NCBI GenBank assembly: GCA_026388815.1
Contig: JAPLJA010000077.1
Location: 1-54,327 of the forward strand
Direction: 5' to 3'
DNA from: Pseudomonadota bacterium
Lineage (GTDB): Bacteria > Desulfobacterota > WTBG01 > JAPLJA01
DNA: 54,327 nucleotides
Below are positions 1 to 17,320 of the stretch, piece by piece. The position numbers and the translations under genes are program-made. Within the stretch, counting starts at the first letter, position 1, and each line of letters opens with the position of its first letter. The notes under the pieces are model-generated. The model saw only the letters and a list, made by a program, of their open reading frames with translations, made no database searches and was not told the origin of the DNA.

Positions 1-349
1 CTCTCGGCGGATAGGTGGTGGGAAGGTTTAATACTAAGCTGACGCCACCTTCATCCCCGATGATTTCCCAGATCGCCTGGTCTTTTCGGGTATGTGAGTT
101 GATAGGGTGGGGCTTGAAGTTGGCATCCCGATAGAAAAAGTCATAGATCCCATGCTTTCCCGGGTTTTTTCCGGTGATGAAAGAATTCCACGCAGGAGCC
201 GTAACAGGAGGAATAACGGATTCCAGTTCACCGCTGATACCCTCACCCATCATTTTTTTCAAAAAAGGCAGCTCACCCTGGTCTATCCAGGGTTTGAGCA
301 GGTCGAAGCCTCCACCATCTAAACCGACTACAAGTACTTTACGTTTCAT
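1..349 (-). CDS. alkaline-phosphatase-superfamily (type I) phosphodiesterase, N-terminal part only
   Basis: The gene runs off the left edge; about 116 N-terminal residues are visible. Translation from the ATG at 349 gives the metal-binding VVGLDGGGFDLLKPW segment, then the VTAPAWNSFITGKNPGKHGI segment that carries the nucleophile Thr, and stops at LNLPTTYPPR. It is a close paralogue of the complete protein at 3278-4990, matching it almost residue for residue at these motifs. The family hydrolyses or transfers phosphodiester/phosphate groups using two metal ions; the substrate is unknown. The start overlaps the stop of the upstream acyltransferase gene as ATGA, the same junction seen at 4987-4990, so the acyltransferase-phosphodiesterase pair exists twice. 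Everything after residue 116, including the second metal site, is outside the window. Confidence 0.85.
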   Translation of the reverse strand, partial: MKRKVLVVGLDGGGFDLLKPWIDQGELPFLKKMMGEGISGELESVIPPVTAPAWNSFITGKNPGKHGIYDFFYRDANFKPHPINSHTRKDQAIWEIIGDEGGVSLVLNLPTTYPPR

Positions 350-1002
350 GATTTGCCTTTCAAGACACACAGTTCGTCGATTATCCTTTGGTTGCATTTT
401 TGAATCAACGCATCGTCGAGACCGTCTCTTTCCTTTGGGGGATCTATAGAAAAGGGTTTGCCGATGACAATATCTATCCTGCCATTCAGTCGGGGATACT
501 TGGCCCATCGTGGCCATATATCATAAACACCCCGGACAAGTGTTGGACAAATGGGCGCACCTGATTTCAAGGCAAGCCAGGCTGCACCAGGTTTAAGCTC
601 CTGCAATTCCCCATCCCAGGTCATCTCACCTTCAGGGCCGAGACAGACCGATTCCCCCTTTTTCAGGCATCTCAGGGCAGTAAGAAAGGAAGGGATAGAA
701 AGGTCTTTCGTCTTATAAATAGGTATTCCTCCACCCCGGATAAAGAGTTTGGCAACGAAGGGGTTTGACATAATTGCATCGGCCACAAGGGGATGAAGAT
801 CCGGCCGCTTTATTCGCCAGACACACACTGACAGGAAATCGAGGCCAGATGTGTGGTTACTTACCAGGATGACAGGACCCTGTGATGGTATATTTTCTTT
901 CCCTTCAATCCTGACGTGATAGGGAATTTTTGCTAACCATATGATGAAACGAGCAAACAATTGTCTTATCGTCTTAGCCAAGGAGCCTCTCTTTTTTTCC
1001 AT
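346..1002 (-). CDS. PlsC-like 1-acyl-glycerophosphate-type acyltransferase
   Basis: This 218-residue protein has the PlsC/LPLAT signature: NHTSGLDF near residue 50 is the HX4D catalytic motif, and GPEGEMTWDG near residue 125 corresponds to the EGTRS substrate-binding motif in a divergent form. A hydrophobic N-terminal stretch (LFARFIIWLAKI) suggests membrane association at the inner face of the cytoplasmic membrane. The family moves an acyl chain from acyl-ACP or acyl-CoA to a hydroxyl of a glycerol-phosphate-like acceptor. It aligns end to end with the paralogue at 4987-5643. It is followed with an ATGA overlap by a phosphodiesterase gene. In this cluster it probably loads the cluster's own acyl product on a polar acceptor (inference); the acceptor need not be lysophosphatidate. 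Confidence 0.85.
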   Translation of the reverse strand: MEKKRGSLAKTIRQLFARFIIWLAKIPYHVRIEGKENIPSQGPVILVSNHTSGLDFLSVCVWRIKRPDLHPLVADAIMSNPFVAKLFIRGGGIPIYKTKDLSIPSFLTALRCLKKGESVCLGPEGEMTWDGELQELKPGAAWLALKSGAPICPTLVRGVYDIWPRWAKYPRLNGRIDIVIGKPFSIDPPKERDGLDDALIQKCNQRIIDELCVLKGKS

Positions 1003-1033
1003 TCATCAAAAGGCGAGTGCTTATAAAAATATT

Positions 1034-2446: not shown

Positions 2447-2624
2447 ACTTTACTCCCTTTTTTTCTCATGGCTTTGACCACTGAAGAGTTTCGGGCTCAG
2501 GTCTTGTTTTTTCATGTTATCTCTTTTATTTAACCACATGATTAATCAAATAGAGCGTTTAAAAATAAGTTACAGTTCCTTTTTTCTTCTATCAATACTA
2601 TGTCAATTCCCGTCGAATGAGAAA

Positions 2625-3269
2625 TCAATAATTAGAAAAGAAAATCTTGTTTCCAGCCTTCTGGGAGGCCAGATGGGCAAGGTGGGTCAGCCACTTGAGA
2701 TAGCTGTCATTGAGCTTAAATTTATAAATCCGTGCACCGGATGCAAGGCCGAGGTAGTGGGTGGCCTCGATATAGACAGAATCGAGGTCGGAAAACCAGA
2801 AAGAAAAAATCTTATCCTTCTGCCAGATCAGTCTCTGGTCGGTTAAGAGCAACGCCCCTTTCCCCACCTTCCGCATAAAGGGATAGACCAGTTTCTGTAT
2901 CTCTTTCCTTTTTTTAACCTTGGGGAAAAATTCAGGGTTATCCTCCTGGACAACCAGCGACGCTGATTTCGCTTGCAGGAATATGTGTTCATCTGGTTTG
3001 AGGACTGGGGGACGGTCAGGCCGGGGCTGGGGCGTGAAGCTCTCTTTCATCCTTTCATACCACGCCCACAGGGGAAGCTCTTTTTCACCAAGAGCTGGTT
3101 CTGGTGAGAGTAACCTGAGGTAGTAGTCATCCCCCTTTCTTCGGATAACTGACCATTGTGCATGACAATAGACACACCGAAGCAGGTCTTCCGTAAACCA
3201 CCTTCTCTGCTGGTGAAGTGCATCGATGGTAAAGCAGAGAGGGCAGCGCCACAATAAGTTGGGTATCAT
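2625..3269 (-). CDS. zinc-ribbon plus PH/GRAM-like domain protein of unknown function
   Basis: I do not recognise a named family for this 214-residue protein. The N-terminus carries a four-Cys zinc ribbon (Cys9, Cys12, Cys32, Cys35; WRCPLC and LRCVYC). The middle holds a proline-rich linker (PQPRPDRPPVLKP). The C-terminal half reads like a bacterial PH or GRAM-type domain: GALLLTDQRLIWQKD, then FSDLDSVYIEATHYLGLASG, then a short helix. Such domains often bind lipid head groups or membrane proteins. It starts 8 bases after the phosphodiesterase stop, so it is surely in the same operon. A membrane-surface adaptor for lipid assembly is possible but is only inferred from the domain guess and the neighbours. 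Confidence 0.7.
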   Translation of the reverse strand: MIPNLLWRCPLCFTIDALHQQRRWFTEDLLRCVYCHAQWSVIRRKGDDYYLRLLSPEPALGEKELPLWAWYERMKESFTPQPRPDRPPVLKPDEHIFLQAKSASLVVQEDNPEFFPKVKKRKEIQKLVYPFMRKVGKGALLLTDQRLIWQKDKIFSFWFSDLDSVYIEATHYLGLASGARIYKFKLNDSYLKWLTHLAHLASQKAGNKIFFSNY

Positions 3270-3277
3270 AGGGATCG

Positions 3278-4990
3278 TCAGCCTTCCCAGTCAATATAGC
3301 CGAGCCGCTTAAGTTTCTTGAGATAGTCCTTCTCCTCCTCTGGGGTCGTGGTAGGGGATGAAGCCTGAGGAGGGGGAGCAGCGCTCGTGAATTCTACAGG
3401 GTTTGTTGCAAGGAAATCAGATGAGATGACCTCCTCCAATACCCTGCCGTCACTGTCCTGAGGTATTTTGATCCCCATGAGGTAGAGGATGGTTGGGAAG
3501 AGATCGAGAATCTTTGCCTGCTCTACGGTGATACCGGAACGTAAGGGAGTGCCTATGCCGAAGAGGATACCTTTCCTTTTATGGTGGCCGCTCATGCCCC
3601 AGGTCCTGGTGATGGACTGGTTCGAGGTAAAGCCGAAAATGCTCACCGCCAAATAACTGTTGTTCATGGGAAGGAAGGTGATGTCAGGTGCGGTTTCTAC
3701 CTGGTCTCCCGAATAAACCTCATCCCGGGTAAAGATCTCGCCTTTGATCTCCTGGCCGTTTTCAGGGTCTCTCAATGCTTTCAGCCTGGAGATGAGATCT
3801 GCTCGTAATGTTTCATATTCCTTACCGGGGTCTACCATACCATAAGGGAACTTACCCTTTACGTTGATGATGATCTGGCCGCTGCCAGCCACACCGACGT
3901 TACTGAATGCCCTGGTCCTGGACCAATCCACATCGTGGATGGTAAGGAGGGCGGCTTTCTGAGTGAAGAATTTATTGAACGTCACCAGGAGCGATTCATC
4001 ACTCTTATAACGTATGCCCATCCTGATGAGACGGGTATAGAGAGTGTGGTAGAGGGATTCGTGGGTAAGTCCATGCTGCCAGAGGAAATACTTCAGCCTG
4101 GTAGGTAAATCCCTTTTTAAAGCGATATAGCCTTCTTTCAGGAGCCAGACATTGAGATCAACAATTTTTTTCAGGGGACCAAATCCATGGTCGGAGATGA
4201 TGAAAAGGGGAGTGCTGTTCCCGCCCATCGCCTCCCAGAGTCTTCGGACTTCCTGATCGAACTGCCTGAAATAGTCAAGGATGTTTTCTCCATGTTTTTG
4301 AAAGAGCGCCTCTTCAAAGAGGGGGTGGGTTCGGTCAATGACATGCCAGAGGGAGTGGCAGATGGGATCGCTCTCCCAGATATGGAGCATGAGGAAATGG
4401 GGATCAAGCTTTTCCTTCAGGTAGTGGGCAACCTCAAACTTATACTTGAGCGCGTGCTTACACTCGTTGAGAAAGGTCTCAATGAGCGAATCAGTAACGC
4501 TGATGGCCAGACTGGGTGTCTTGAAGAAGAGGGGATACTTCCCAAACTTTCCTTCGATCTCCTGAACCAACTCTCCGGGATACATGAAGTCGTCTCTGCC
4601 AGAGGGGGTTAAGAAATCGCTGATCAGTGCCCCTCTCAGTTCCCGCGGAGGGTAGGTGGTAGGAACATTTAGAATAACACTCACCCCTCCCTGATCTCCG
4701 ATAATCTCCCAGATTGCCCGGTCTTTTCGGGTGTAAGAACTGATGGGGTGGGGCTTGAAGTCCTTATCCCGGTAGAAGAAGTCATAGATCCCGTGCTTGC
4801 CGGGATTCTTTCCGGTGATGAAGGAGTTCCAGGCAGGGGCAGTGACCGGGGGAACAACAGATTCGAGTTCCCCGCTTATCCCTTTGTCCATCGTGCCCTT
4901 CAGGAAGGGTAACTCACCCTGCTCAATCCAGGGCTTGAGGAGCTCGAAACTCCCGCCATCCAGGCCAATCACCAGGATCTTACTCTTCAT
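3278..4990 (-). CDS. alkaline-phosphatase-superfamily (type I) phosphodiesterase/phosphotransferase
   Basis: A 570-residue enzyme of the nucleotide pyrophosphatase/phosphodiesterase branch. Visible motifs: VIGLDGGSFELLKPW with metal ligand Asp11; VTAPAWNSFITGKNPGKHGI with likely nucleophile Thr50; ESDPICHSLWH around 207-216; ISDHGFGPL with Asp267 and His268; and SGHHKRKGILFG, which supplies the last metal-binding His. There is no clear signal peptide, so it is probably cytoplasmic. The C-terminal tail LKKLKRLGYIDWEG resembles the tail of the paralogue at 40524-42140. The start codon overlaps the upstream acyltransferase stop as ATGA. The family cleaves or transfers phosphate esters; in a lipid cluster the substrate may be a phospho-lipid or phospho-sugar (inference). 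The paralogue cut by the left window edge has the same N-terminal motifs. Confidence 0.87.
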   Translation of the reverse strand: MKSKILVIGLDGGSFELLKPWIEQGELPFLKGTMDKGISGELESVVPPVTAPAWNSFITGKNPGKHGIYDFFYRDKDFKPHPISSYTRKDRAIWEIIGDQGGVSVILNVPTTYPPRELRGALISDFLTPSGRDDFMYPGELVQEIEGKFGKYPLFFKTPSLAISVTDSLIETFLNECKHALKYKFEVAHYLKEKLDPHFLMLHIWESDPICHSLWHVIDRTHPLFEEALFQKHGENILDYFRQFDQEVRRLWEAMGGNSTPLFIISDHGFGPLKKIVDLNVWLLKEGYIALKRDLPTRLKYFLWQHGLTHESLYHTLYTRLIRMGIRYKSDESLLVTFNKFFTQKAALLTIHDVDWSRTRAFSNVGVAGSGQIIINVKGKFPYGMVDPGKEYETLRADLISRLKALRDPENGQEIKGEIFTRDEVYSGDQVETAPDITFLPMNNSYLAVSIFGFTSNQSITRTWGMSGHHKRKGILFGIGTPLRSGITVEQAKILDLFPTILYLMGIKIPQDSDGRVLEEVISSDFLATNPVEFTSAAPPPQASSPTTTPEEEKDYLKKLKRLGYIDWEG

Positions 4991-5643
4991 GGTTTACCTT
5001 TCAGGGCACAAATCTCATCCCGTATCCTCCGGGTGCATTCCAAGAGAAGGGCATCGTCCAGTTTTTTCTTCTCTCCCGGCAGAGCAACAAAAAAGGGTTT
5101 TCCAATTCTGATCTCTATGGTGCCAGTCAGATTCGGGTACTTTGCCCAGCGGGGGCAGGCATCATAGGCACCACGTACGTAGGAAGGGCAGACCGGCGCA
5201 CCTGATTTCAGGGCCAGCCAGGCGGTACTCGTTTTAAATTCCTGCAGCCTCCCGTCCCAGCTCATCTCGCCCTCAGGGGCAAAAGCCACTGGTTCGCCTT
5301 CCTTGAGGTACCGGAGTGCCATAAGAAAGGATGACATGGAAAGCCCCTTTGCCTTAGAGACCGCTATCCCTCCCATCCGCATGAATAATTTTGCCTTTAA
5401 AGGACTCGATATCACCGCATCGGCTACAATGAGGTGGATATCCGGCCTCCTCCTGCGCCAGGTAGAGGTTACAAAGATATCCAGAGCAGATGTATGGTTA
5501 CAGATCAGGATGAGTGGCCCCTGCGCAGGTATATTTTCATCACCTTCAATCCTGAGCTGGTAAGACAATTTTCCCAGGCTTAAGATGAGATGAGCAAAAA
5601 ACCTTCTTACTGCTTTCTCCATACGTCCTCTTCTTTGATCCAC
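4987..5643 (-). CDS. PlsC-like acyltransferase (second copy)
   Basis: Second member of the duplicated cassette, 218 residues, the same length as the copy at 346-1002. NHTSALDIF gives the HX4D catalytic motif near residue 50 and FAPEGEMSWDGRLQEF gives the divergent EGTRS-like block. SYQLRIEGDENIPAQGPLIL is typical of the strand before HX4D. The gene start lies 37 bases inside the end of the epimerase gene upstream; an internal ATG at 5622 is possible, but alignment with the first copy favours 5643. Its stop overlaps the following phosphodiesterase start (ATGA). It probably transfers an acyl chain from ACP to a polar acceptor at the membrane. Having two diverged copies suggests two acylation steps (inference). 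Confidence 0.85.
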   Translation of the reverse strand: MDQRRGRMEKAVRRFFAHLILSLGKLSYQLRIEGDENIPAQGPLILICNHTSALDIFVTSTWRRRRPDIHLIVADAVISSPLKAKLFMRMGGIAVSKAKGLSMSSFLMALRYLKEGEPVAFAPEGEMSWDGRLQEFKTSTAWLALKSGAPVCPSYVRGAYDACPRWAKYPNLTGTIEIRIGKPFFVALPGEKKKLDDALLLECTRRIRDEICALKGKP

Positions 5644-6605
5644 GCTTCCATCCTTTTTATCCCCTCTTTAAATGTTATCTTCGGCTGGTAGCCCAGCTCT
5701 GTCCGGGCGCGGCTTAAATTCACCTCGAGATCATGGGTTAACAGATAAAGGCCATAGAGTGTGAACAAGGGTGGGTCTTCTCGCCTTGTTAACCGGGCCT
5801 GTATCCCCATCAGGAAGACAACGAGCAAGGCTAAGGAAAATGGAACAGGGACCTTTGGCGGCGGAAGCTGAAACAGTCTTGCTAAGGCAGAGAAATATTC
5901 TTTCGCCGTTATTTTTTCTCCATCCGTTATGTGGTAGACCCTGCCTGATTTTCCCGATTTGCCGGCGAGGATGAGTCCATCAACTACATTTGAACAGTAG
6001 GAGAGAGTGAGATGGTTCTTGCCCCCGTCTATCAGAAATAGTCTTTTATTTTTCAAATGACTCACAAGACGTGGAAGTGTTTTTGTATCTCTTGGTCCCC
6101 AGATTAAGCCGGGGCGCACAATAGTGACCGGTAACCCTTTAAGCTGGGCGTATTCAAGGGCGATCATCTCTCCCTTTCTTTTTGTCTCGGTGTAGAGATC
6201 CAAAACTTTTCGAGAATAAGGAAATGTTTCATCGATGGGCTGAGGAGACTTATGTACTGCTAAAACGGTGAGGGAGCTGGTATGGACCACCTTACATCCG
6301 TTCTTGAGCGCTACCTCAAGGAGATTCTTCGTCCCCGCTACATTTGCTTCATAAAATGTTTCTTCCCCCCCCCACTCATCAACCATCCCGGCACAATGGT
6401 AGATGATTTCAACACCTTGTGCGGCTGAAAAGAGTGATGCTGGGTCACGCAAGTCACCGGAGCAGAGTTCCACTCCCAATTCCTCGAGCCGCTGTGCCTT
6501 GGTCCTGTCCCTGACCAGGACCCGAACTTCTTCGCCCTGTTTGACCAGGGTCTCTGTAAGGTGTCCCCCCAGGAAGCCAGTTGCACCGGTTACCAGCACT
6601 TTCAT
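5607..6605 (-). CDS. NAD(P)-dependent epimerase / 3-beta-HSD-like extended SDR
   Basis: A 332-residue extended short-chain dehydrogenase. The N-terminal VTGATGFLGGHL is the nucleotide-binding GxxGxxG loop, LCSGDLRDPASL and HCAGMVDEWG follow as expected, the catalytic Tyr/Lys pair lies in YTETKRKGE, and IVRPGLIWGPRD is the family substrate-loop motif. A hydrophobic segment (PFSLALLVVFLMGI) near residue 260 resembles 3-beta-hydroxysteroid dehydrogenase and OleD-like members that act on lipids. It has a good ribosome site (AAGGAAGG) before the ATG. It sits 12 bases after the ketosynthase gene, so it is probably a reductase or epimerase acting on the lipid made by the cluster, or a nucleotide-sugar enzyme for its head group. 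The sequence alone does not decide between these. Confidence 0.82.
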   Translation of the reverse strand: MKVLVTGATGFLGGHLTETLVKQGEEVRVLVRDRTKAQRLEELGVELCSGDLRDPASLFSAAQGVEIIYHCAGMVDEWGGEETFYEANVAGTKNLLEVALKNGCKVVHTSSLTVLAVHKSPQPIDETFPYSRKVLDLYTETKRKGEMIALEYAQLKGLPVTIVRPGLIWGPRDTKTLPRLVSHLKNKRLFLIDGGKNHLTLSYCSNVVDGLILAGKSGKSGRVYHITDGEKITAKEYFSALARLFQLPPPKVPVPFSLALLVVFLMGIQARLTRREDPPLFTLYGLYLLTHDLEVNLSRARTELGYQPKITFKEGIKRMEAWIKEEDVWRKQ

Positions 6606-6617
6606 TGTAGACCTTCC

Positions 6618-7922
6618 TTAATTTCTCCCTGGTGTTCTCTTAACGATCAGGGTGGAATTCTGGCCACCAAAGCCGAAGGAATTGGAGAGGGCGATCTCTA
6701 TCTCTTTTTCCCGGGAGTTATTGGGGATGTAGTCGAGGTCACAGGCCGGGTCAGGGACCTCATAGTTGATGGTGGGAGGAAGGAAGTGATGATACATGCC
6801 AGTAACGGTAGTGATCAATTCTACCGCGCCTGCAGCTCCCATAAGGTGCCCAAAGAGAGATTTGCTGCTGCTCACCGGGATATTCTTTGCGTGAGGACCA
6901 AAGACCGTTTTTATTGCCTTTGTCTCAATCCGGTCATTTTTCAGCGTGGCCGTACCGTGGGCGTTGATGTATTCTATCTCCTCCGGGGCAATCCCGGCAT
7001 CCCGGATAGCCCTCTCCATGGCGAGGATTGCGCCGGCACCCTCAGGGTGAGGGTCTGCCACACTATAGGCGTCTACTGATGTACCATAACCGATAACCTC
7101 CCCGTAAATCGTAGCCCCCCTTTGTATCGCATGATTCAATTCCTCAAGGACGAGGATGCCAGATCCTTCACCCAGTACAAAACCGTCCCTGGTTAGATCG
7201 AAAGGCCGTACCGCCCTTTCAGGCTCATCATTTCTCGTGCTCATGGTGCCAAGCAGACAGAAGCCTGCCACACCGAAAGGAAAGATCATGGAATCATAAC
7301 CACCGGTGATCATCAGATCGCAGTCACCTCTCCGGATCATCCGGTAAGCCTCGCCGATTGCCTGGGAAGAGGCGGCACAGGCGGAGATAACGGTATAACA
7401 GGGGCCTTTTATCCCGTATTGATGGGCAATCGTTATGGTTCCCAGATTTACAGGCACCCATTTGGCTTCATCCCCTCTCAGGATATTGTCGATCCATCGC
7501 GCTTTGAACTCATCCCAGTCGCAGTAATCTTCTGGTTTTATTTTCTCAAGCCCCCAGGCCATGATGGGGTTATTGTCAGAGATAATGGGGTGAATTCCTG
7601 CCCCCAGGACAACCCCACATCGGGTTTTCCCTATCGCTTCCGTATCCACATCTGCATCATTCAATGCCAGTTTGCAGGCTGAGTGCGCGAGAAGAGTTCG
7701 CCGGTCATTGGTGAAGTTAAGGATTCCCATGCCGGATAACAGTTCATGGGGATTAAACCCCTTCACCTCTGCAGCGATCCGGGTCGGAAGGGCTGCAGCA
7801 TTGAAGAGGGTAATAGGACCAACCCCTGACTTTCCTGCTGACAGGTTCTTTTTGAACATTTCATTCCCGATTCCCAGGGGAGAAACAATCCCTAAACCGG
7901 TGATGGCTGCCTGTTTATTCAT
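6618..7922 (-). CDS. beta-ketoacyl-ACP synthase (FabF-like), catalytically intact
   Basis: A 434-residue condensing enzyme with a complete catalytic triad: Cys182 in VISACAASSQAIG, His322 in INAHGTATLKND and His359 in SSKSLFGHLMGAAGA, with the conserved Lys354. It performs decarboxylative Claisen condensation of malonyl-ACP with an acyl chain in the cytoplasm. The C-terminal PTINYEVPDPACDLDYIPN and NSFGFGGQNSTLI blocks are typical of KAS II. It overlaps the upstream dehydratase gene by 8 bases. It is one of four ketosynthase-fold genes in this operon and one of two with an intact active site (the other is at 16001-17320). It may extend the chain after the first dehydration rounds or act on a different chain length (inference). 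Confidence 0.93.
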   Translation of the reverse strand: MNKQAAITGLGIVSPLGIGNEMFKKNLSAGKSGVGPITLFNAAALPTRIAAEVKGFNPHELLSGMGILNFTNDRRTLLAHSACKLALNDADVDTEAIGKTRCGVVLGAGIHPIISDNNPIMAWGLEKIKPEDYCDWDEFKARWIDNILRGDEAKWVPVNLGTITIAHQYGIKGPCYTVISACAASSQAIGEAYRMIRRGDCDLMITGGYDSMIFPFGVAGFCLLGTMSTRNDEPERAVRPFDLTRDGFVLGEGSGILVLEELNHAIQRGATIYGEVIGYGTSVDAYSVADPHPEGAGAILAMERAIRDAGIAPEEIEYINAHGTATLKNDRIETKAIKTVFGPHAKNIPVSSSKSLFGHLMGAAGAVELITTVTGMYHHFLPPTINYEVPDPACDLDYIPNNSREKEIEIALSNSFGFGGQNSTLIVKRTPGRN

Positions 7923-8379
7923 CAGATGTCTCGGCCAAAAATTTTCCGCTGGAAAAGATATAGGCGCTCTTTATCTTCTCCCGGTGTGTCTTCGGGACCT
8001 CAAAGAGGGTATAGTAGATCCTCTCAACGCGGGCTACGGGTTCCCCTTTTACCAAGGCAGTACCCCGGATCCCTGCACCGTATTCGTTCATCTCTGTTAT
8101 TTCTACCTTCAGGTGCAGTTGATCGCCGGGGTAAACGAACTTAAAGAACCGTGCTTCGTCAATCATCACCATGATGGCGAGATAGCGATAGTGCGCAGTG
8201 GTGCTGATAGCCCATCCTCCCACCTGTGCGAGCGCCTCGATGATGAGTGGTTCAGGGAAGACCGGAAGGCGGGCGTAGTGATTGAGAAAAAACTCCTCGC
8301 CGCCAGAGATATTTTTTATCCCGACAGCCTCCTTCCCTTTTTCAAACTGCTCTATCCGGTCAAAGAAGAGAAATCTCAC
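7915..8379 (-). CDS. FabZ/FabA-like hotdog-fold 3-hydroxyacyl-ACP dehydratase
   Basis: A 154-residue single-hotdog protein starting at a GTG. The active-site helix region reads FFLNHYARLPVFPEPLIIEALAQ, abbreviated here as NHYARLPVFP and IIEALAQ; it keeps the catalytic His and the Glu of the FabZ HFPxxPxxPG...E pattern, but the Gly before the His is Asn and the MPG turn is changed to FPEP. The N-terminus MRFLFFDRIEQFEKGKEAV is the one shared by dehydratases linked to secondary lipid clusters. It probably dehydrates 3-hydroxyacyl-ACP to enoyl-ACP. The changed loop may alter chain preference or turn it into a thioesterase-like or non-dehydrating partner of the next hotdog protein at 8474-8941. 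It overlaps the ketosynthase downstream. Confidence 0.83.
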   Translation of the reverse strand: MRFLFFDRIEQFEKGKEAVGIKNISGGEEFFLNHYARLPVFPEPLIIEALAQVGGWAISTTAHYRYLAIMVMIDEARFFKFVYPGDQLHLKVEITEMNEYGAGIRGTALVKGEPVARVERIYYTLFEVPKTHREKIKSAYIFSSGKFLAETSDE

Positions 8380-8947: not shown

Positions 8948-9325
8948 TCATCCTCTTTCTGTTATGACCTGGGCGCATGCAACAGCATAATCCCGACAAT
9001 GGGAGAGAGAGACCAGTATCTTTTTAATCCTTCTTTCCTGAACGATTTCCTTAACCCGCCCATAGGTGTTCACCTCGGGTTTACCCCACCGGTCATTCAC
9101 AACTTCTACATCTGTCCAGCCAATGCGTCCGCTCCAGCCGGTTCCCAGTGCCTTCAGCACGCTCTCCTTTGCTGCAAAACGGGCTGCGAGGTGCTGGTAC
9201 TTGTTTCTCTTTTTTGTGCAGAACTCGATCTCGCGAGGTGTATACACCCGGGTGAGGAATTCTTTGTGCCGGAGAGAGAGCTCTTCAATCCTCTTTACTT
9301 CAGTAATGTCAATCCCGATACCCAT
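8948..9325 (-). CDS. acpS: holo-[acyl-carrier-protein] synthase
   Basis: A 125-residue AcpS-type phosphopantetheinyl transferase. GIGIDITEVKRIEEL at the N-terminus holds the metal-binding Asp, and ARFAAKESVLKALGTG is the second signature with the metal-binding Glu and Lys. It activates ACP by moving 4-phosphopantetheine from CoA to the ACP Ser. I chose the ATG at 9325 because it forms a TGATG overlap with the ACP stop; a TTG one codon upstream is also possible. Being coupled translationally to the ACP gene at 9325-9738, it most likely serves that unusual ACP. It may also be the only AcpS in the genome, which this window cannot show. Confidence 0.93.
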   Translation of the reverse strand: MGIGIDITEVKRIEELSLRHKEFLTRVYTPREIEFCTKKRNKYQHLAARFAAKESVLKALGTGWSGRIGWTDVEVVNDRWGKPEVNTYGRVKEIVQERRIKKILVSLSHCRDYAVACAQVITERG

Positions 9326-9738
9326 CAAGCCCCTTTCTTCTCTTTTTCAGCAAGACACTTTTGGGTCAGGTTGATAAAGGTCTGGACGGTAAAGAGGGTA
9401 GGAATGTCTTCTGCCCTGAAACCTTCAGGCATGCGGTCAGGATTAATCTCCGGCATTTCCTTGAGCAATCTCGCTATTCCCAGCGGGGTCAGCACCCCGT
9501 CTTTTAGCAGGTCCTCTTCCTTCACGCCCTCGCTGCCAAGGACATTGCTCTGAATTCCGCCTCGAGGTATTTGAATCCCGAAGGCTTTCTCCAGCCGAAA
9601 GACGATATCGAGTAAATCAAGGGACTCTGCTCCCAGATCGTCAAAGAGCATAGCATCCGGCACAACCTCTTCTGCATCAATGCCCAGGGCCTGAGCAATG
9701 CACATTCTCACCTTTTCTGTGATCTCTTTCTCATCCAT
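9325..9738 (-). CDS. acyl carrier protein with an extended insertion
   Basis: A 137-residue ACP, against about 80 for FabD/AcpP-type ACPs. LGAESLDLLDIVFRLEKAFG holds the phosphopantetheine-accepting Ser39 (ESLD instead of the usual DSLD). After helix II there is an insertion of about 50 residues rich in turns (IPRGGIQSN through MPEGFRAED) before the terminal helix (LFTVQTFINLTQKCL). ACPs of this insertion type are known beside ketosynthase/dehydratase clusters in several phyla, so this one is probably dedicated to the cluster. The ATG at 9738 has AAAGGAG 8 bases upstream; a GTG 9 bases earlier sits too close to that site. The downstream acpS overlaps its stop. Confidence 0.9.
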   Translation of the reverse strand: MDEKEITEKVRMCIAQALGIDAEEVVPDAMLFDDLGAESLDLLDIVFRLEKAFGIQIPRGGIQSNVLGSEGVKEEDLLKDGVLTPLGIARLLKEMPEINPDRMPEGFRAEDIPTLFTVQTFINLTQKCLAEKEKKGA

Positions 9739-9762: not shown

Positions 9763-11526
9763 TTAAGCGTGACCGCTATTCTTTTCTTTTGACACACTGA
9801 AGCCTTCATGGATAGCCTCTTTAAGACCGCGGGGTTCTTTTACATCGCCGATATACTCCACTTTCTTACCCATGCTCTCGAGTGCTTTCCATCCATATAT
9901 TCCATTGCTCACCTTGCGGATAGCTACCACAAGAGTATCGTAACTATCAACGGTACGCAATTCCTTTTTCTGTTCTATTACCACAAATCCCCTGCCCACC
10001 TCAACTACCTTTGACCTGAGCAGGACCTCTACCTGAGGGTTCTCCATGAGGCGGTGGGACAGGTGAAATCTCACGGAGGGGGGGAGTCCATATCCAATAA
10101 GCCTTTTCATTTCAATGAGGGTAACCTTTTTCCCTTTCTGGGCAAGAAAGTCAGCGAGCTCAGCCCCTTCTGGTCCACCGCCGATAATGGCAACGTTCTC
10201 CCCGACGGACTCAGGATTCAGAAAGGCCTGTTCCACGGTCAGGCAATCCCCATTTTCAACCCCTGTAATTTCCGGGAGGGTATGATGAGCGCCAGTGGCA
10301 ACAACGATCCTGTCTGGTTTAAACCCGGCTAAAAACTTTGGAGTTACCTCATCCTTTAGACGGATACTCACGGTACTCTTCCTGACTTCCTTGAGAAGAT
10401 ACTCCAGGAACTCCCTTAAGGGATACTTCCCAGGAGCAAGACATGCTATCCTTAACTGGCCTCCGAGGGTTTCTTCTCTTTCAATCAGGGTTACCTCGCT
10501 CCCTCTTTTTGACAGTTCGAGGGCGGCCTGCATCCCGGCAGGCCCTCCCCCGATTACCAGAACTTTTTCACCGTTTTTGTGAACGGTATGTTCTTCCCCT
10601 TCCTTCCCCAGGTACGGGTTAACAACACACGCCATCTTCCCGTAAAAGATGCTTTCAATACACCGGTTACAGGATATGCAGGGCCGGATCTCTTCTGTCT
10701 TCCCCTGTGAGGTTTTTAAGGGAAGATAGGGATCAGCAATTAATGCCCTGCCCATGCAGACCAGGTCTGCCTTCCCTTCCTGTATAATCCCTTCAGCCAT
10801 TTCAGGCTTCCGTATCCTCCCTACAGCCATAACGGGGATAGGGACAACTTCTTTTATCCCCTGGGCGAGGTGAACAAAACACCCTTCTTCCAGATAGTAA
10901 GAGGGCATATTGAGGTGAGCCGATTCATAATTACAGGCAGAAACATTCAGCGCCGATGCTCCGGCATCAGTTAGGATGTTTGCTATCGTTTTACTCTCCT
11001 CGAGGTCAAGCCCTCCCTCAACATACTCATCAGCACTGATTCTGCAGATGATCGGGATATGATCGCCAATCGTGCGCTTGATCTCCAGGATGATCTCTCG
11101 GGCAATACGCGTCCGGTTCCCCGTGCTCCCGCCGTACTGATCAGTGCGGATATTAGAATAGGGGGAAAGAAACTGACAGAGGAGGTACCCGTGTGCCATA
11201 TGGAGTTCAATGGCATCCACTCCAGCCTCAACACCCCTCTGAGCAGCTTCGGCAAAGGACCTCACGATGTTACCCGCGATATACGAGTCATCGTGAATGC
11301 AGAGCATCCCCTGGTTCACCCTTCCTTCAGGGTGGACAGCAGTATTTTCTATAATGATCAGTCCTACCCCCCCCTTTGCCCTCTCCTGATAGTATGAGAT
11401 CATCTGGTCGGTCACATAGCCATGTGAATTAGCCATATGTGTCTCCATAGCCGGGAGAACGAACCGATTCTTGAGCTTCAGAGTACCGAGTTGAAGGGGA
11501 GTAAAAAGGTTTTTAAACTCTATCAC
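9763..11526 (-). CDS. NADH:flavin oxidoreductase / 2,4-dienoyl-CoA-reductase-like enoate reductase
   Basis: A 587-residue flavoprotein of the FadH/BaiCD group. The N-terminal TIM barrel (old yellow enzyme; FTPLQLGTLKLKNRFVLPAM, HMAHGYLLCQFLSPYSN) binds FMN; next come four Cys for a [4Fe-4S] cluster (CISCNRCIESIFYGKMACVV, roughly residues 281-300); the C-terminal half is an FAD/NAD(P) domain (VLVIGGGPAGMQAALEL, and a second GGGPEGAELADFLA). It reduces activated C=C bonds with NAD(P)H. The start is a GTG at 11526, 5 bases after the fabG stop. The cluster has no FabI, FabK or FabL homologue in this window, so this enzyme is the likely enoyl reducer, either in each cycle or for a selected double bond (inference). 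Confidence 0.88.
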   Translation of the reverse strand: MIEFKNLFTPLQLGTLKLKNRFVLPAMETHMANSHGYVTDQMISYYQERAKGGVGLIIIENTAVHPEGRVNQGMLCIHDDSYIAGNIVRSFAEAAQRGVEAGVDAIELHMAHGYLLCQFLSPYSNIRTDQYGGSTGNRTRIAREIILEIKRTIGDHIPIICRISADEYVEGGLDLEESKTIANILTDAGASALNVSACNYESAHLNMPSYYLEEGCFVHLAQGIKEVVPIPVMAVGRIRKPEMAEGIIQEGKADLVCMGRALIADPYLPLKTSQGKTEEIRPCISCNRCIESIFYGKMACVVNPYLGKEGEEHTVHKNGEKVLVIGGGPAGMQAALELSKRGSEVTLIEREETLGGQLRIACLAPGKYPLREFLEYLLKEVRKSTVSIRLKDEVTPKFLAGFKPDRIVVATGAHHTLPEITGVENGDCLTVEQAFLNPESVGENVAIIGGGPEGAELADFLAQKGKKVTLIEMKRLIGYGLPPSVRFHLSHRLMENPQVEVLLRSKVVEVGRGFVVIEQKKELRTVDSYDTLVVAIRKVSNGIYGWKALESMGKKVEYIGDVKEPRGLKEAIHEGFSVSKEKNSGHA

Positions 11527-11531
11527 AGTCT

Positions 11532-12275
11532 TTACGCCCTGAATCCTCCGTCCACGTGGACAATCTCTCCGGTAATGTAGGAGGACTCATCTGAGGCCAT
11601 AAAGACGACTACGTGGGCTATTTCCTCTGCTTTTCCCATCCGCCTCAGGGCAATAGAATCTACGATGACATCCCGTGCCCTGCGGATTACCTGACTGCTC
11701 ATATCAGTCTCTATTACTCCCGGCGCAATGGCGTTTACGGTGATCCCCTTCGGGGCAAGTTCCATGGCGACTGCCCTGGTAAAAGCGTTAATTCCACCTT
11801 TTGAGGCAGCATAATTAGACTGTCCCCTCCCCCCCCTTTCTCCGGCAACCGACGATATATTGATTATCCTTCCGCTCTTCTGGGTGATCATATACTTGGC
11901 CACTGCTTTCGTGCAATTGAAAACACCGCCCAGGTTGGTATTGATCACCAGATCCCAGTCTTTCTTTGCCATGGATAGCAGGAGTTCATCCCGGGTGACG
12001 CCGGCATTGTTTACCAGGACATCAATCCTCTCCCACTTCCGGTATATTTCATCCACCATCCTCTCGACTTCCTCAAGGTTGGCAACATCTGTCTGGATAC
12101 TGAATATCCTCTCCCCCCTGCTTTCTCCCTCTCGTACCAGGCTTTCTGCCTCTTCTTTACTCTTCAGGAAATTGCAATAAACGATAGCCCCTTCCCGTGC
12201 AAGGTGTGTGACTATGGACTTCCCTAAGCCTCTCGTCCCGCCGGTAACCACTATGACCTTGTTCTTAAGCCTCAT
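11532..12275 (-). CDS. fabG: 3-oxoacyl-ACP reductase (FabG-like SDR)
   Basis: A 247-residue classical short-chain dehydrogenase. VTGGTRGLGKSIV is the NADP-binding TGxxxGxG loop, NNAGVTRDELL follows at the expected place, the catalytic Ser lies in INISSVAGERGGRGQSN and the Tyr/Lys pair in NYAASKGG. ITVNAIAPGVIETDM and the C-terminal YITGEIVHVDGG are standard. It reduces 3-oxoacyl-ACP to 3-hydroxyacyl-ACP. Length and motifs match FabG closely. It lies between the acyl-ACP-reductase-like gene and the enoate reductase, so in this operon it supplies the ketoreduction step of the elongation cycle. Whether it also serves primary fatty-acid synthesis cannot be told from the window. Confidence 0.93.
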   Translation of the reverse strand: MRLKNKVIVVTGGTRGLGKSIVTHLAREGAIVYCNFLKSKEEAESLVREGESRGERIFSIQTDVANLEEVERMVDEIYRKWERIDVLVNNAGVTRDELLLSMAKKDWDLVINTNLGGVFNCTKAVAKYMITQKSGRIINISSVAGERGGRGQSNYAASKGGINAFTRAVAMELAPKGITVNAIAPGVIETDMSSQVIRRARDVIVDSIALRRMGKAEEIAHVVVFMASDESSYITGEIVHVDGGFRA

Positions 12276-12282
12276 GTTGTCC

Positions 12283-13407
12283 TCACGCTACCCGCCGGTC
12301 CCTCTTGAATGCCTCTCTGGTCATCTGAAGGTTTGCTTCATCTACAGGTCTTCGGAAGCTTCGCAGGGTATTGGCGATAAATCCATGGATTTCGCTCTTT
12401 CTTCCTATCTCTTCAATCTTCTCCAGCGGCAATTCCCTGCCCAGGGAGAAGGATTCAGATGCACCTTCCAGGGTGAGAATCATGGTCTCAGCCAGACACG
12501 CAGGTACATCATTGGGCTCCCAGTTCGAAAATTTAGCCCGATGGGGAGTGCTCCCAGGCAGGGTAACAACTCCTCCGTCAAGAATCAAGACATCTTTTCG
12601 TTTTTCCCTGTTTTCAATCACATCCCGCGGCTGGGCTATATCCAGAACAATGCTCCCGCTCAGGAGGATATCCGGGTCAATGATCTGACCTGTTGACGTG
12701 GCAGTAACAATGATTCTTCCCCGGGTAAGGGAATGAGAAAGGTCTTCTGTGATTTCAATCCCCCCGGTGCATGACCCCTTCAATTCCGACACGAAGCGGT
12801 CCAGGAACGGAGTTTTTCTCCTGCTCACCAGGATGAGATTGAAGCCCCGTCTGGCTAAGATACGGGCGATGGCTAAGGAAATACTGCCCGGGAATCCTAC
12901 GATCACGATTTTCTCGGAAGAGAAATCGAGGTCAATCTCCTTCTGTAGCCTTGCAAAGGTAGCCAGAGTTGAATAAACGGTAAGGCAATTGCCGGAGGTG
13001 ACCGGCACGGTTATCTTCTCTGCAATTTCTTTGCCTCGCGAGCCAACAGCCCCTGTTAATCCTCCCAGTCCGATGACCCGAGAACCCCAGTGCTGGGCCT
13101 GGTGGCAGGCAAGCTCCACAAGATTCACGGCGGTAGATTGAAGATTGAGAATCTGATCCGGCATGAGGAAGATACAGTATACCCTTCCTTTACATGATAT
13201 GTTCTGATGGGAGATGATAGGGGGAAAGGTGTAGATTGATTTCACTGCTTTCCTGTTAAGACATTGAGATTTTATGAAATTTTCCGTGCCGAAGGGGAGG
13301 ATTGGCAGGGCATGGCGGAATACCAGTTGTCTCAACTCAGATATACTGCGAGGGTGGACGATGAAGCCGAATCGTAGTTCGTCATGTGTACGGGTGAATT
13401 CAAGCAT
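12283..13407 (-). CDS. long-chain acyl-ACP reductase (aldehyde-forming, cyanobacterial AAR-like)
   Basis: The 374-residue protein resembles cyanobacterial AAR over most of its length. Shared blocks are VIGLGGLTGAVGSRGKEIAE, then VPVTSGNCLTVYSTLAT, a Rossmann strand IVIVGFPGSISLAIARIL, ILDGGVVTLPGS, and ACLAETMILTLEG followed by LEKIEEIGRKSEIHGF. Cys304 in ACLAETM lines up with the Cys of AAR (Cys294 in Synechococcus, as I recall) that carries the acyl group. AAR reduces acyl-ACP with NADPH to a fatty aldehyde. I start at the ATG at 13407, 14 bases beyond the ketosynthase stop; reading farther upstream would overlap that gene and adds nothing conserved. Its N-terminal 60 residues differ from AAR. 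A related glutamyl-tRNA-reductase-fold enzyme with another acyl substrate is the alternative. Confidence 0.8.
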   Translation of the reverse strand: MLEFTRTHDELRFGFIVHPRSISELRQLVFRHALPILPFGTENFIKSQCLNRKAVKSIYTFPPIISHQNISCKGRVYCIFLMPDQILNLQSTAVNLVELACHQAQHWGSRVIGLGGLTGAVGSRGKEIAEKITVPVTSGNCLTVYSTLATFARLQKEIDLDFSSEKIVIVGFPGSISLAIARILARRGFNLILVSRRKTPFLDRFVSELKGSCTGGIEITEDLSHSLTRGRIIVTATSTGQIIDPDILLSGSIVLDIAQPRDVIENREKRKDVLILDGGVVTLPGSTPHRAKFSNWEPNDVPACLAETMILTLEGASESFSLGRELPLEKIEEIGRKSEIHGFIANTLRSFRRPVDEANLQMTREAFKRDRRVA

Positions 13408-13421
13408 ACGTTCGGGGCTTC

Positions 13422-14729
13422 TCAGGGGCGCTGAATAATGAGCGCAGTGGTCTGCCCGGACAATCCCTGGTTGACGGAGAGAGCGATGTTTACTTCTTTC
13501 GCTCGGGCCTGATTGGGCACATAGTCCAGGTCGCACTCAGGATCAACGGTTTGGTAGTTTATGGTGGGAGGGATCATGCCGTGCTCCATGCTGAGTATGC
13601 AGTAGATCAGTTCTACAGCACCGGAAGCTGCACCCAGATGGCCGGTCATTGATTTTGTAGAGCTCAGGGGAATACGGCGGGCATCATCACCCAGCACTGC
13701 TTTGTACGCTTTGGTTTCTGCCCGGTCACTCTCTACCGTAGCGATACCGTCGGCATTAATATAGTCTATGTCATGGGCATGGATACCGGCCTCTTGCAAT
13801 GCGCTTTCCACTGCTGTGATGATCCCGCTCCCGTGAGGACATGGTTGATAGAGGTGGTAAGCGGTGGTGGTATTCCGATACCCTGTCACCTCTGCATAGA
13901 TCCGGGCATTCCTCTTGACAGCATGTGAGTATTCTTCAATGATCACCATCCCGGCACCTTCGCCCAGGAGAAACCCATCCCTCTTGAGGTCAAAGGGCGA
14001 AAATATACCCTGAGCACCTCCGCGGGTAGAGAGAAGGTTGAGGCTGTGATAGCTGAAGATGGTACCGGGGAAGATGAGCGTGTCATATCCCCCTGCCATC
14101 ATGACTTCTGCATCTCCCCGCTGAATGCTTCTCGCTGCGTCACCGATCGCCTGAGAACCTCCCGTAAAGGGAGATATGAGGTTATTATTTTCTCCTTGGA
14201 TTTTGTAGAGAGAGGAGATGTAAAAAAAGGCATTATTCGGCAAGGTCTTAATGAGAAAGAGGGGATAAATTCCACCTTCCAAGAAATCTCCAAAACGGTG
14301 GACATCGAATTTTTCATGATTCTCATTCCACGATTTCTTTAAGATTTCCACGGAATCTTCGAATCCAGGCCCATCTTCAAATCCGCCGTTGCCTGAGCCT
14401 ATAACAGCGCCAAAGCGAGGAGGATCGACCATGCCGATCGTAAGGCCCGCGTCGGTGAATGCCATCTTGGCTGCTGCGAGGGCAAGGTGAACATTTCTGA
14501 ACGTCAGTTTTAATATCCTCCGGTCGATGCCGTACTGCGAGAGGTCAAAATTCCTGACCTCTCCAGCGCTTTTAACAGGAAAAGGGGCAGGATCAAAAAG
14601 GGTAATGTTACTCAGACCGGATTTTCCAGCCTTCAGGGCTTCCCAGTTCTCTTCTTTTCCAAAACCCAGAGGGGATACCACTCCCACACCAGTAATGACT
14701 GCTCTTTTCGTTTTCTTTTCTTTCATCAT
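13422..14729 (-). CDS. ketosynthase-like protein without catalytic Cys (chain-length-factor-like)
   Basis: A 435-residue KAS II-fold protein. Where active enzymes have the nucleophile, the sequence is NLISPFTGGSQAIG, so the Cys is Phe188. The first catalytic His is Asp327 (INADGIATVESD), while the second His (His364, STKSMTGHLGAASGA) and Lys remain. GEGAGMVIIEEYSHA and the C-terminal TINYQTVDPECDLDYVPN are conserved, so the fold is intact and the gene is not simply decaying. In type II polyketide systems a Cys-less KS beta subunit (chain length factor) pairs with an active KS and sets chain length. By analogy this protein probably forms a heterodimer with the active KS at 16001-17320 or 6618-7922. 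It starts 9 bases after the preceding gene. Confidence 0.88.
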   Translation of the reverse strand: MMKEKKTKRAVITGVGVVSPLGFGKEENWEALKAGKSGLSNITLFDPAPFPVKSAGEVRNFDLSQYGIDRRILKLTFRNVHLALAAAKMAFTDAGLTIGMVDPPRFGAVIGSGNGGFEDGPGFEDSVEILKKSWNENHEKFDVHRFGDFLEGGIYPLFLIKTLPNNAFFYISSLYKIQGENNNLISPFTGGSQAIGDAARSIQRGDAEVMMAGGYDTLIFPGTIFSYHSLNLLSTRGGAQGIFSPFDLKRDGFLLGEGAGMVIIEEYSHAVKRNARIYAEVTGYRNTTTAYHLYQPCPHGSGIITAVESALQEAGIHAHDIDYINADGIATVESDRAETKAYKAVLGDDARRIPLSSTKSMTGHLGAASGAVELIYCILSMEHGMIPPTINYQTVDPECDLDYVPNQARAKEVNIALSVNQGLSGQTTALIIQRP

Positions 14730-14738
14730 CTCCGCTTC

Positions 14739-16016
14739 TTACGAAAACTTTTTTATGATTAAGCTCGTATAATCCCCCTCCGGACCAAAGGTGTTGGACA
14801 GAACGGTATCAATCTTTTTCTCTCTCGCCTCATTGGGCACATAATCCAGATCACACCGTGGATCAGGGTAGTCATAGTTTATGGTAGGGGGGATGATATT
14901 CTCATTGATGCTCATGATGGAAAAAATCGCTTCAACAGGCCCTGATGCACAGAGTAAGTGTCCCGTCATAGACTTATTTGAGCTTACCGGTACCGTATAA
15001 GCGTACTCTCCGAATACCTTTTTTATGGCCTCAGTTTCAGCCCAATCGGATATCTCACAGGATCGTCCATCGGCATTGATATAATCAACCCCTTCGGGAG
15101 CAATACCCGCTTGTTTCAGGGCCCCCCGCATGGCAATTTCAGCACCGTTCATATCACGTGCAAGCGATTCTCTGCAGGGCATCTCTCCCAGTCCATAGAC
15201 ACAGGAGGTGTAGCCTGTAATTTCAGCGTAAATCTTTGCACCTCTCTTCCGTGCATGGTTCAACTCCTCTATAACCAGGAGAGCAGCCCCTTCACCCAGA
15301 ATCACACCATCTCTCTTGAGGTCAAAGGGGCGGCAGATTGCTTCAGGATGGTCGGACGAGGGAGAGAGAAGATCTTTCAAAAAAAAGGACGTTAAGCAAA
15401 TGGGGTTGATAGTATCACATCCGCCGGCAAGCAAAGCAGGGATTTCCCCCTCACGCACCTTTTTCATTGCTTCTCCAATGGCCTGAGCACCGGCCGATGC
15501 TATAGAACTGAAAATAACATTTGGTCCCTGGATATGGTAGAGAATTGAGACATGACACAAAGCCATGTTTGGTAAGAGGGTAAAAGGCCAGATGGGATTG
15601 AGTGATTGTAAGCCTTCTCTTCCAAACCTCTGATGATCTACGGTCATATCCTCACTCAGAGATGCATAGATAGCGGTTACAGCATCTTCAATCGCATACT
15701 GAGTACCGCCGATCCCGAGAACAAGTCCGGTTTCACTTGGGTTGATGCCCGAATCAGCAAGCGCCATGTTGGCTGCAGCAGCGACTAATTGACTCCCTCT
15801 GTTCATTAATTTGATGGATTTACGTTTTGGAATGAATTGTGCGGGATCGAAGTCTTTGATCTCGCCTGCAATGGAATAGGGAAGGTTTTCAGAGATGGAA
15901 GAGCGTACTCTTCGTATTCCCGATTTCCCTTGAATCAGGGATTGCCAACTTTCTTTCAGATTGTTTCCTAAGGGGGAGATCAGGCCAAGCCCCGTAACCA
16001 CTACCCTTCTATCCAT
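14739..16016 (-). CDS. ketosynthase-like protein without catalytic Cys (second chain-length-factor-like copy)
   Basis: A 425-residue KAS II-fold protein. The nucleophile position is Ala173 (FSSIASAGAQAIG) and the first His is Asp316 (INADGRSCEISD); the second His is kept (His353 in NKSMTGHLLCASG). The same His-to-Asp change as in the gene downstream, but a different replacement of the Cys, suggests a common non-condensing ancestor followed by divergence. It overlaps the active ketosynthase at 16001-17320 by 16 bases, the arrangement expected of a KS alpha/KS beta pair. It probably forms the chain-length-setting partner of that enzyme. Alternatively it could act as a decarboxylase-like priming subunit, as proposed for KSQ domains, although those have Gln at this position. 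Confidence 0.88.
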   Translation of the reverse strand: MDRRVVVTGLGLISPLGNNLKESWQSLIQGKSGIRRVRSSISENLPYSIAGEIKDFDPAQFIPKRKSIKLMNRGSQLVAAAANMALADSGINPSETGLVLGIGGTQYAIEDAVTAIYASLSEDMTVDHQRFGREGLQSLNPIWPFTLLPNMALCHVSILYHIQGPNVIFSSIASAGAQAIGEAMKKVREGEIPALLAGGCDTINPICLTSFFLKDLLSPSSDHPEAICRPFDLKRDGVILGEGAALLVIEELNHARKRGAKIYAEITGYTSCVYGLGEMPCRESLARDMNGAEIAMRGALKQAGIAPEGVDYINADGRSCEISDWAETEAIKKVFGEYAYTVPVSSNKSMTGHLLCASGPVEAIFSIMSINENIIPPTINYDYPDPRCDLDYVPNEAREKKIDTVLSNTFGPEGDYTSLIIKKFS

Positions 16017-17320
16017 CTCTTTTTGTTATTCCTATCTTCGATAAATTTCTCGACGATCAGGCTGACATTCTGACCGCCAAAGGCAAAAGAGTTGGATAGA
16101 ACTGCATTTACCTCTTTTCCCCTGGAAATGTTGGGTACATAATCCAGGTCACACTCCGGATCAGGGTGGGTCAGATTGACCGTAGGAGGGATGATGTTGT
16201 GCTGGATGGTGAGGATGCTGATGATCAACTCCACTGCTGAAGAACTGGCAATCAGATGGCCGAGCATGGATTTATTAGAACTGATGGGAATCTCGTAAGC
16301 TCTTCTCCCGAATACTTTTTTTACAGCTCGGGTTTCACTCCGATCGTTTGATAAGGTAGAGGTACCATGGGCGTTGATGTAATCGATATCATCAGGAGAG
16401 AGGTGTGCATCCTTCAGTGCTGCCATCATACAAATATCCGCCCCGCTCCCATCAGGAGTAGAGTCAGTTATTCGGTAGGCATTCGAGGAACTTCCATATC
16501 CCGTTAATTCAGCCAGAATGTTGGCTTTCCGCGCTCGAGCATGAGACAATTCTTCGAGGACGAGGATACCTGATCCTTCACCCAACACAAAACCGTCTCT
16601 CTTTCCGTCAAAGGGTCTGCTGGCTTTGTGCGGTTCGTCGTTGTTCCTCGACAAGGCACCCAGCAATCCGAAACCTGCGATAGCGAACTCGCTGATCATT
16701 GACTCACAGCCGCCGGCAATCATGATATCCGCTTCTCCAGATTCAATGGTACGAAGAGCCCTTCCAATCGCATGCCCACTGGATGCGCAGGCAGTAGCTG
16801 AGGTGTTCGTAGGCCCCCGGGCATTGAGGATAAGAGAGAGGAGAAACGTAGTAATACTGGCTGTCCTGCGTATAGGCCAGATCTTTCCCAGGGGTTTAGA
16901 ACTGTCAAAGTAATAATTACTCCCTGAAGCCAGGGCTTGATAGGTGAGAAACTCGCCATAGACCTCATCAATTTGATCGAGATGTACATGCTCTTCATTG
17001 GTCCCGAGCGAAATACCAAATCGGGTTGGATTGATAGTCTTGAGATTTAATTTGGCATCCTCGATAGCCATCCGGGTTGCTTCAAAACAGAATTTGGTAG
17101 CGCGACTCATAAAATCAACGAGGTGAGGATCATATCCAAATCCATTTAAATGAAAATTCTTAACTTCTCCGGCTATCCGGACAGGGAAGGTAGAGGCATC
17201 AAAGAGAGTAATGCGATTTACCCCTGACCTGCCCTCTGTCAAACCTTCCCAGGTACTCTTAACATTTAATCCCAAGGGGGTAACTGTCCCCAGGCCAGTT
17301 ACGACAACTCTTTTTCCCAA
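16001..17320 (-). CDS. beta-ketoacyl-ACP synthase (FabF-like), catalytically intact, first gene of the operon
   Basis: A 439-residue condensing enzyme with all catalytic residues: Cys178 in SATACASSGHAIG, His318 in INAHGTSTLSND, His355 in SNKSMLGHLIASS, and Lys350. NSFAFGGQNVSLIVE closes the fold. The start is a TTG at 17320 with AGGAG nine bases upstream, and the product begins MGKRVVVTGLGTVTPLG as KAS II enzymes do. It is the promoter-proximal gene of the minus-strand cluster, about 107 bases downstream of a predicted transcription start. The following Cys-less ketosynthase overlaps it by 16 bases, so the two are translated in step and probably form a heterodimer. It condenses malonyl-ACP with the growing chain. 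Confidence 0.93.
   Translation of the reverse strand: MGKRVVVTGLGTVTPLGLNVKSTWEGLTEGRSGVNRITLFDASTFPVRIAGEVKNFHLNGFGYDPHLVDFMSRATKFCFEATRMAIEDAKLNLKTINPTRFGISLGTNEEHVHLDQIDEVYGEFLTYQALASGSNYYFDSSKPLGKIWPIRRTASITTFLLSLILNARGPTNTSATACASSGHAIGRALRTIESGEADIMIAGGCESMISEFAIAGFGLLGALSRNNDEPHKASRPFDGKRDGFVLGEGSGILVLEELSHARARKANILAELTGYGSSSNAYRITDSTPDGSGADICMMAALKDAHLSPDDIDYINAHGTSTLSNDRSETRAVKKVFGRRAYEIPISSNKSMLGHLIASSSAVELIISILTIQHNIIPPTVNLTHPDPECDLDYVPNISRGKEVNAVLSNSFAFGGQNVSLIVEKFIEDRNNKKRWIEG

Follow-up and report, generated by a model that had tools for sequence, protein, structure and literature searches.

The window analysed here comprises positions 1 to 54,327 of contig JAPLJA010000077.1 (assembly GCA_026388815.1) and carries on its minus strand, between positions 346 and 17320, a closely packed gene run that combines a candidate type II acyl-chain synthase, with its own acyl carrier protein (ACP), and a putative acyl-thioester reductase (AAR). 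All the gene families named in a preliminary description of the sequence were recovered there. The ketosynthases (KS), dehydratases (DH) and associated genes of the synthase are, in order of transcription:

16001..17320, minus strand: KS1, beta-ketoacyl-ACP synthase with the catalytic Cys and both His (Pfam/NCBIfam and motif check); orthologues in all cluster relatives
14739..16016, minus strand: KS2, Cys-less ketosynthase with Ala at the Cys and Asp at the first His; candidate chain-length-factor (CLF) partner
13422..14729, minus strand: KS3, Cys-less ketosynthase with Phe at the Cys and Asp at the first His; candidate CLF partner
12283..13407, minus strand: AAR, candidate stand-alone PigE-type acyl-thioester reductase; catalytic Cys C305 of the 375-aa reading
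11532..12275, minus strand: FabG-type 3-oxoacyl-ACP reductase (profile matches; 56-67% identity in relatives)
9763..11526, minus strand: enoate reductase, a BaiCD/2,4-dienoyl-reductase-like flavoprotein with an in-frame barrel gap of ~60 aa
9325..9747, minus strand: ACP of 140 aa, ~60 residues beyond a usual ACP
8948..9328, minus strand: AcpS, 4'-phosphopantetheinyl transferase (profile matches)
8474..8941, minus strand: DH1, FabZ-like dehydratase, His and Glu kept
7915..8379, minus strand: DH2, second FabZ-like dehydratase, His and Glu kept
6618..7922, minus strand: KS4, beta-ketoacyl-ACP synthase with the catalytic Cys and both His; found only in AAR-bearing clusters
5607..6605, minus strand: extended short-chain dehydrogenase/reductase (SDR), HpnA/OleD-like; candidate keto or aldehyde reductase

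Neighbouring gene ends overlap or lie at most ~30 nt apart, except for two wider gaps, 94 nt between DH1 and DH2 and 178 nt between the zinc-ribbon and radical SAM genes further downstream. No terminator-like site was found on the minus strand outside coding sequence across the run, where such sites are no commoner than in shuffles, and the same holds for sigma-70-like sites, one of which (TTGACA-17-TACTAT) lies upstream of KS1. The arrangement of the genes goes far beyond chance, given that distant genomes keep its core. The G+C content is ~0.50 in 3300-17320 and 0.41 in 17469-54327, a contrast that gives weak evidence of transfer since other contigs of the same genome range from 0.44 to 0.50.

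Active sites of the ketosynthases and the reductase

At the aligned active-site positions, KS1 and KS4 both read Cys-His-Lys-His, KS3 reads Phe-Asp-Lys-His and KS2 Ala-Asp-Lys-His, confirming the proposed two active and two Cys-less ketosynthases. The locus thus unites a ketosynthase with the catalytic residues, a Cys-less homologue and a discrete ACP, as expected of type II KS-CLF systems. The ACP is 56-66% identical to the ACPs of ten relatives, and its structure model (mean pLDDT 86.6) has ACPs as its matches in the PDB, with RPA2022 the best and the anammox ACP 7auf among them.

The reductase carries an NAD(P)-binding Shikimate_DH domain, which places it in the PigE/AAR reductase family, and its catalytic Cys, which lines up with those of cyanobacterial AAR and PigE, is kept unchanged in all eight sequences compared. 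It scores 288 bits against the PigE equivalog NF053554, over the reductase part only and below the cut-off of 850 bits, and 70 bits against the cyanobacterial AAR model TIGR04058, whose equivalog cut-off is 449.7 bits. Among PDB entries the closest is 4ppm, a PigE-like aminotransferase, followed by cyanobacterial AAR. Since PigE is the closer by both measures, we rejected a cyanobacterial-type AAR as its identity: the aldehyde-forming, AAR-like reductase suggested earlier stands as a candidate with its catalytic Cys, its type being that of the PigE reductase domain rather than of the cyanobacterial enzyme. A lysate containing PigE converted a thioester to the transaminated product of its aldehyde (PMC8341465).

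The SDR is 41% identical to its counterpart in genome G274, and 49% in G209 over a fragment at a contig end. The enoate reductase lacks ~60 TIM-barrel residues present in a homologue from Anammoxibacter, either through a real deletion or through an assembly fault, and was not seen in the relatives' core clusters. This gene, named in the preliminary description, is present but outside the conserved core, and for both reasons its candidacy as the enoyl reductase of the system is doubtful.

Conservation of the core and its regulation

Close relatives of the reductase were found in three other genomes, all of the same class, among 297 genomes of the phylum. A scan of 84,980 species genomes, based on two exact peptide patterns that can miss relatives, returned the AAR at 44-51% identity in seven genomes (two Candidatus Anammoxibacter, an uncultured delta proteobacterium, an uncultured bacterium and three Thermodesulfobacteriota), all remaining matches being at most 34% identical. 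More distant homologues (Fuchsiella, Bdellovibrionales and others) were uninformative in context, with housekeeping neighbours or a longer protein.

A search for co-occurrence in related genomes, as suggested with the preliminary description, recovered the core in five of the 16 other genomes of the class (G034, G209, G071, G463 and G470, the last at locus L047) and in the two Candidatus Anammoxibacter genomes, and hence in two phyla. In the class, the gene order is KS1-KS2-KS3-AAR-FabG-ACP-(AcpS)-DH1-KS4, often followed by a second KS1-like ketosynthase, DH2 and a double-hot-dog dehydratase (DHd); the L047 cluster stops after ACP. Anammoxibacter has KS1-KS2-DH2-KS3-FabG-ACP-DH1-DH2-KS4-DHd-AAR instead, and one of its two genomes carries a methyltransferase gene ahead of DHd.

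The AAR is present in six of the 17 class genomes, and KS2 in exactly those six, a match with a chance probability of 1 in 12,376 for independent genomes, though these genomes are related. KS4 was likewise seen only in AAR-bearing clusters, G470 being left out here as its cluster is cut by the contig end. Three further genomes (G274, G185 and G294) carry reduced clusters that share KS1, KS3 and ACP with the window. At the thresholds used and in what are draft assemblies, these genomes lack AAR, KS2 and KS4, while DH1 is missing from the clusters; no FabG was found at the G185 locus. Two reduced clusters of the class also have FabG, the second KS1-like ketosynthase, the double-hot-dog dehydratase and the divergent regulators in common with the full clusters. 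Since AAR, KS2 and KS4 are missing together from all three, the gene contents indicate that the reductase travels with the second ketosynthase pair. The AAR/double-CLF mix that had been singled out as distinctive therefore proves to be the coherent part of the system.

Sulfotransferase genes lie beside or near the cluster in G071 (L040:9026-10237), Anammoxibacter (L061:12408-14807) and G294 (L186:6737-7879), so that a sulfated product is conceivable.

Genes for an ABC-type binding protein, a sensor kinase, an NtrC-type regulator and a TonB-dependent receptor are divergent from KS1 in G071, G209, G294, G274 and L047. Loci bearing the divergent sensor/TonB-receptor unit are L037, L039, L150, L148/L187 and L047. 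In 402 kb of the relatives' loci (both strands) there are three exact matches to the sigma-54 -24/-12 consensus, all just upstream of KS1 and in three different relatives; G209 and G071 have versions of this site with two mismatches. In the window, a response regulator is all that lies in this divergent position:

17469..18935, plus strand: sigma-54 response regulator

It is the genome's best match to the NtrC-type regulator of the relatives, by a small margin. A perfect inverted repeat, GCCCCC-TTTTTA-GGGGGC, lies between KS1 and this gene at 17402-17419.

Accessory genes and a decayed duplicate

Downstream of the SDR, the run continues with genes of a different kind:

4987..5643, minus strand: AT2, PlsC-like acyltransferase (profile matches)
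3278..4990, minus strand: PDE2, type I phosphodiesterase/nucleotide pyrophosphatase family (profile matches)
2625..3269, minus strand: ZnPH, zinc-ribbon-like protein with two CxxC pairs and without known family; structure model of low confidence (pLDDT 40.6); paralogue on contig C74
1034..2446, minus strand: B12-binding radical SAM protein, TIGR04072 (rSAM_ladder_B12), 408 bits for a cut-off of 360
346..1002, minus strand: AT1, PlsC-like acyltransferase, duplicate of AT2 (58% aa)
1..351, minus strand: PDE1, 5' part of a duplicate phosphodiesterase; runs off the contig and continues on C74

Position 1 of the window is the contig end, and PDE1 continues on contig C74 (L177) of the same genome, which joins in frame through a 4-nt overlap, AGAG. 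Across the joint the protein reads PPRALKGAL where the intact copy has PPRELRGAL; the joint rests on these four bases together with frame, length and gene order, and not on reads. C74:1-1365 holds the rest of PDE1, with two in-frame stops, then a second zinc-ribbon gene, ZnPH2, 62-63% identical to ZnPH. From these sequences, AT1-PDE1-ZnPH2 is read as a decayed duplicate of AT2-PDE2-ZnPH, because of the two stops. Both PlsC-like acyltransferases announced for the locus are thus present, whereas of the two phosphodiesterases PDE2 is intact and PDE1 is a decayed copy cut by the contig end, which led us to reject two working enzymes. A further phosphodiesterase homologue lies at 40524-42137 on the plus strand of the window, with 32% identity to PDE2 and 35% to one on C74.

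None of the relatives' core clusters contains the radical SAM, phosphodiesterase, acyltransferase or zinc-ribbon genes, which, together with the enoate reductase, look lineage-specific. The proposed attachment of the chain to a phospho-head group consequently rests on this one genome and was not retained as part of the core. The preliminary interpretation is supported for a dedicated type II acyl system and not for the accessory genes as members of its core.

Interpretation and relation to known systems

The best reading of these genes is, in our estimate with a probability of about 0.6, a dedicated and regulated type II acyl-chain synthase with aldehyde release. The dedicated AcpS would activate the special ACP, on which KS1 and KS4 would condense the chain, each paired with a Cys-less partner, KS2 or KS3, acting like a chain-length factor, and FabG and the FabZ-type dehydratases would process the beta-carbon. 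The chain would then pass from the ACP to the Cys of the PigE-type reductase and leave the enzyme as an aldehyde; the SDR or a different enzyme may convert this to an alcohol. Pairs of a ketosynthase with a Cys-less one do occur: by sequence, PDB entry 9s5h contains the two from a Kuenenia-type cluster together. In the window genome, acyltransferases, a phosphodiesterase and the B12 radical SAM protein are added, which would build the chain into a lipid. As the relatives' core clusters contain no enoyl reductase, a polyene or partly unsaturated chain is likelier, though a FabI encoded elsewhere could serve. The dedicated acyl system on its own ACP that had been proposed is supported, with a candidate aldehyde-forming reductase that keeps the catalytic Cys.

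Several points weigh against this reading. Purified PigE, on its own, gave no reaction (PMC8341465), and if the AAR is a side branch, the system could yield mainly a fatty acid and not an aldehyde. The KS-CLF pairings and the product are predictions, and the accessory genes vary from lineage to lineage. As to regulation, the window regulator is only 47% identical to that of the relatives, and no good sigma-54 site lies upstream of KS1 in the window.

A more specific version is put forward tentatively, as one that we hold to be less likely than not: a two-pair KS-CLF synthase of an uncultured Thermodesulfobacteriota class and Candidatus Anammoxibacter, making a polyunsaturated or polyene chain that a stand-alone PigE-type reductase frees as an aldehyde and that belongs to an undescribed lipid or hydrocarbon class. 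If true, type II KS-CLF systems would gain reduction of the thioester to an aldehyde as a way of releasing the chain, and a so far undescribed lipid, aldehyde or alcohol is predicted. With AAR and KS2 perfectly coupled, and with reduced clusters that have neither, the role of the second ketosynthase pair can be tested among near relatives.

An aryl-polyene-like pigment or glycolipid pathway seems unlikely, although it fares better than the other alternatives. In it, KS/CLF, FabG and dehydratases would lengthen a chorismate-derived aryl starter with no enoyl reduction step, and glycosylation and export of the product would follow. Aryl polyene clusters share with the window several ketosynthases including Cys-less ones, FabG, two FabZ-type dehydratases and an acyltransferase, and a core without enoyl reductase would suit such a pathway. 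Moreover, C74, which continues the operon, holds at 2058-10016 a convergent block encoding an AMP-ligase, an Rv2949c-like chorismate lyase, a CAT-like acyltransferase, two phosphodiesterases and a glycosyltransferase, which might supply an aryl starter, and the reduced cluster of G185 adjoins a related CAT-like enzyme, a phosphodiesterase and two glycosyltransferases. However, the genes of this C74 block run on the opposite strand, no starter ligase lies in the operon itself, and beside the AAR-bearing relatives we saw neither chorismate lyase nor AMP-ligase, only a weak CAT match in G209. DH1 falls below the cut-off of the ApeI-like Pfam model (23.9 against 28.5 bits), the KS2 and KS3 profiles find their best structural matches in FabF, and the AAR is an addition: we know of no aldehyde-releasing step in aryl polyene synthesis.

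Improbable, in our view, is a pathway of the ladderane or polyunsaturated-hydrocarbon type, like those put forward for Kuenenia and Desulfotalea, to which an AAR would have been added. The type II fatty-acid synthase clusters of these organisms share with the window a ketosynthase next to a Cys-less one, ACP, FabG, FabZ and a TIGR04072-type radical SAM protein (PMC2649909, PMC4790861). That ladderane clusters share parts with this locus proved truer than thought for one gene, the radical SAM, which exceeds the TIGR04072 cut-off and shares 42% identity with its counterpart in the Kuenenia-type cluster of G328; the AAR is not shared. We take G328 as Kuenenia-like because its Cys-less ketosynthases have Val/Asn/Glu and Phe/Asn/Glu, as published for Kuste3606 and Kuste2805 (PMC2649909). 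One of them matches chain C of PDB entry 9s5h at 753 bits, chain B being a second ketosynthase. TIGR04072 is no ladderane marker by itself, since 63 of the 297 phylum genomes exceed its cut-off, and the radical SAM is missing from the clusters of the AAR-bearing relatives of the class. The Cys-less ketosynthases of the window have Asp298 and His333, against Asn298 and Glu333 in the ladderane/PUHC enzymes (PMC2649909), and the window ketosynthases stand apart from ladderane ones in the tree, though the approximately unbiased (AU) test did not reject one Cys-less clade (p 0.157), and we dropped the claim of an independent origin. The operon contains no amine-oxidase/phytoene-desaturase-like gene, and the AAR is not among the 34 candidate ladderane genes. 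Two Anammoxibacter genomes do carry the core, but their ladderane-type ketosynthase pairs are on different contigs from it, and a search of the other 73 genomes of the class Brocadiia found no AAR, which with the different fingerprint led us not to classify the locus as a ladderane cluster. As the core lies apart from ladderane-type genes in these two anammox genomes, it must be distinguished from them in searches for ladderane genes.

Rhizobia have an AcpXL very-long-chain fatty acid cluster with a specialised ACP, two ketosynthases, a dehydratase and an acyltransferase. That the system is of this specialised-ACP type and the AAR a side activity is similarly improbable: RPA2022, the best structural match of the ACP, is a specialised ACP, NF005079 (PRK06508) does match it and the window genome has PlsC-like acyltransferases, but the match is far below cut-off (47.6 against 83 bits), the acyltransferases are not kept in the relatives' core, and to our knowledge neither an AAR nor a Cys-less ketosynthase belongs to the AcpXL system. 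The likeness to the rhizobial cluster thus extends to the specialised ACP with two ketosynthases, dehydratase and acyltransferase (see PMC11901934), and the difference to the ACP model and the other accessory genes.

Open-licence literature on KS-CLF in anammox bacteria, on AAR with type II polyketides and on aryl polyenes in Desulfobacterota yielded no matching cluster, in keeping with the initial view that the combination may be undescribed. On the tests made, the gene content points to a variant of type II fatty-acid/polyketide synthase that is assignable neither to ladderane nor to aryl polyene systems. Its reductase has the protein family and the catalytic Cys in common with the N-terminal thioester reductase of PigE, from prodigiosin synthesis, and with cyanobacterial AAR; it differs from PigE in standing alone, without an aminotransferase domain, and from both in its place within a KS/CLF operon.

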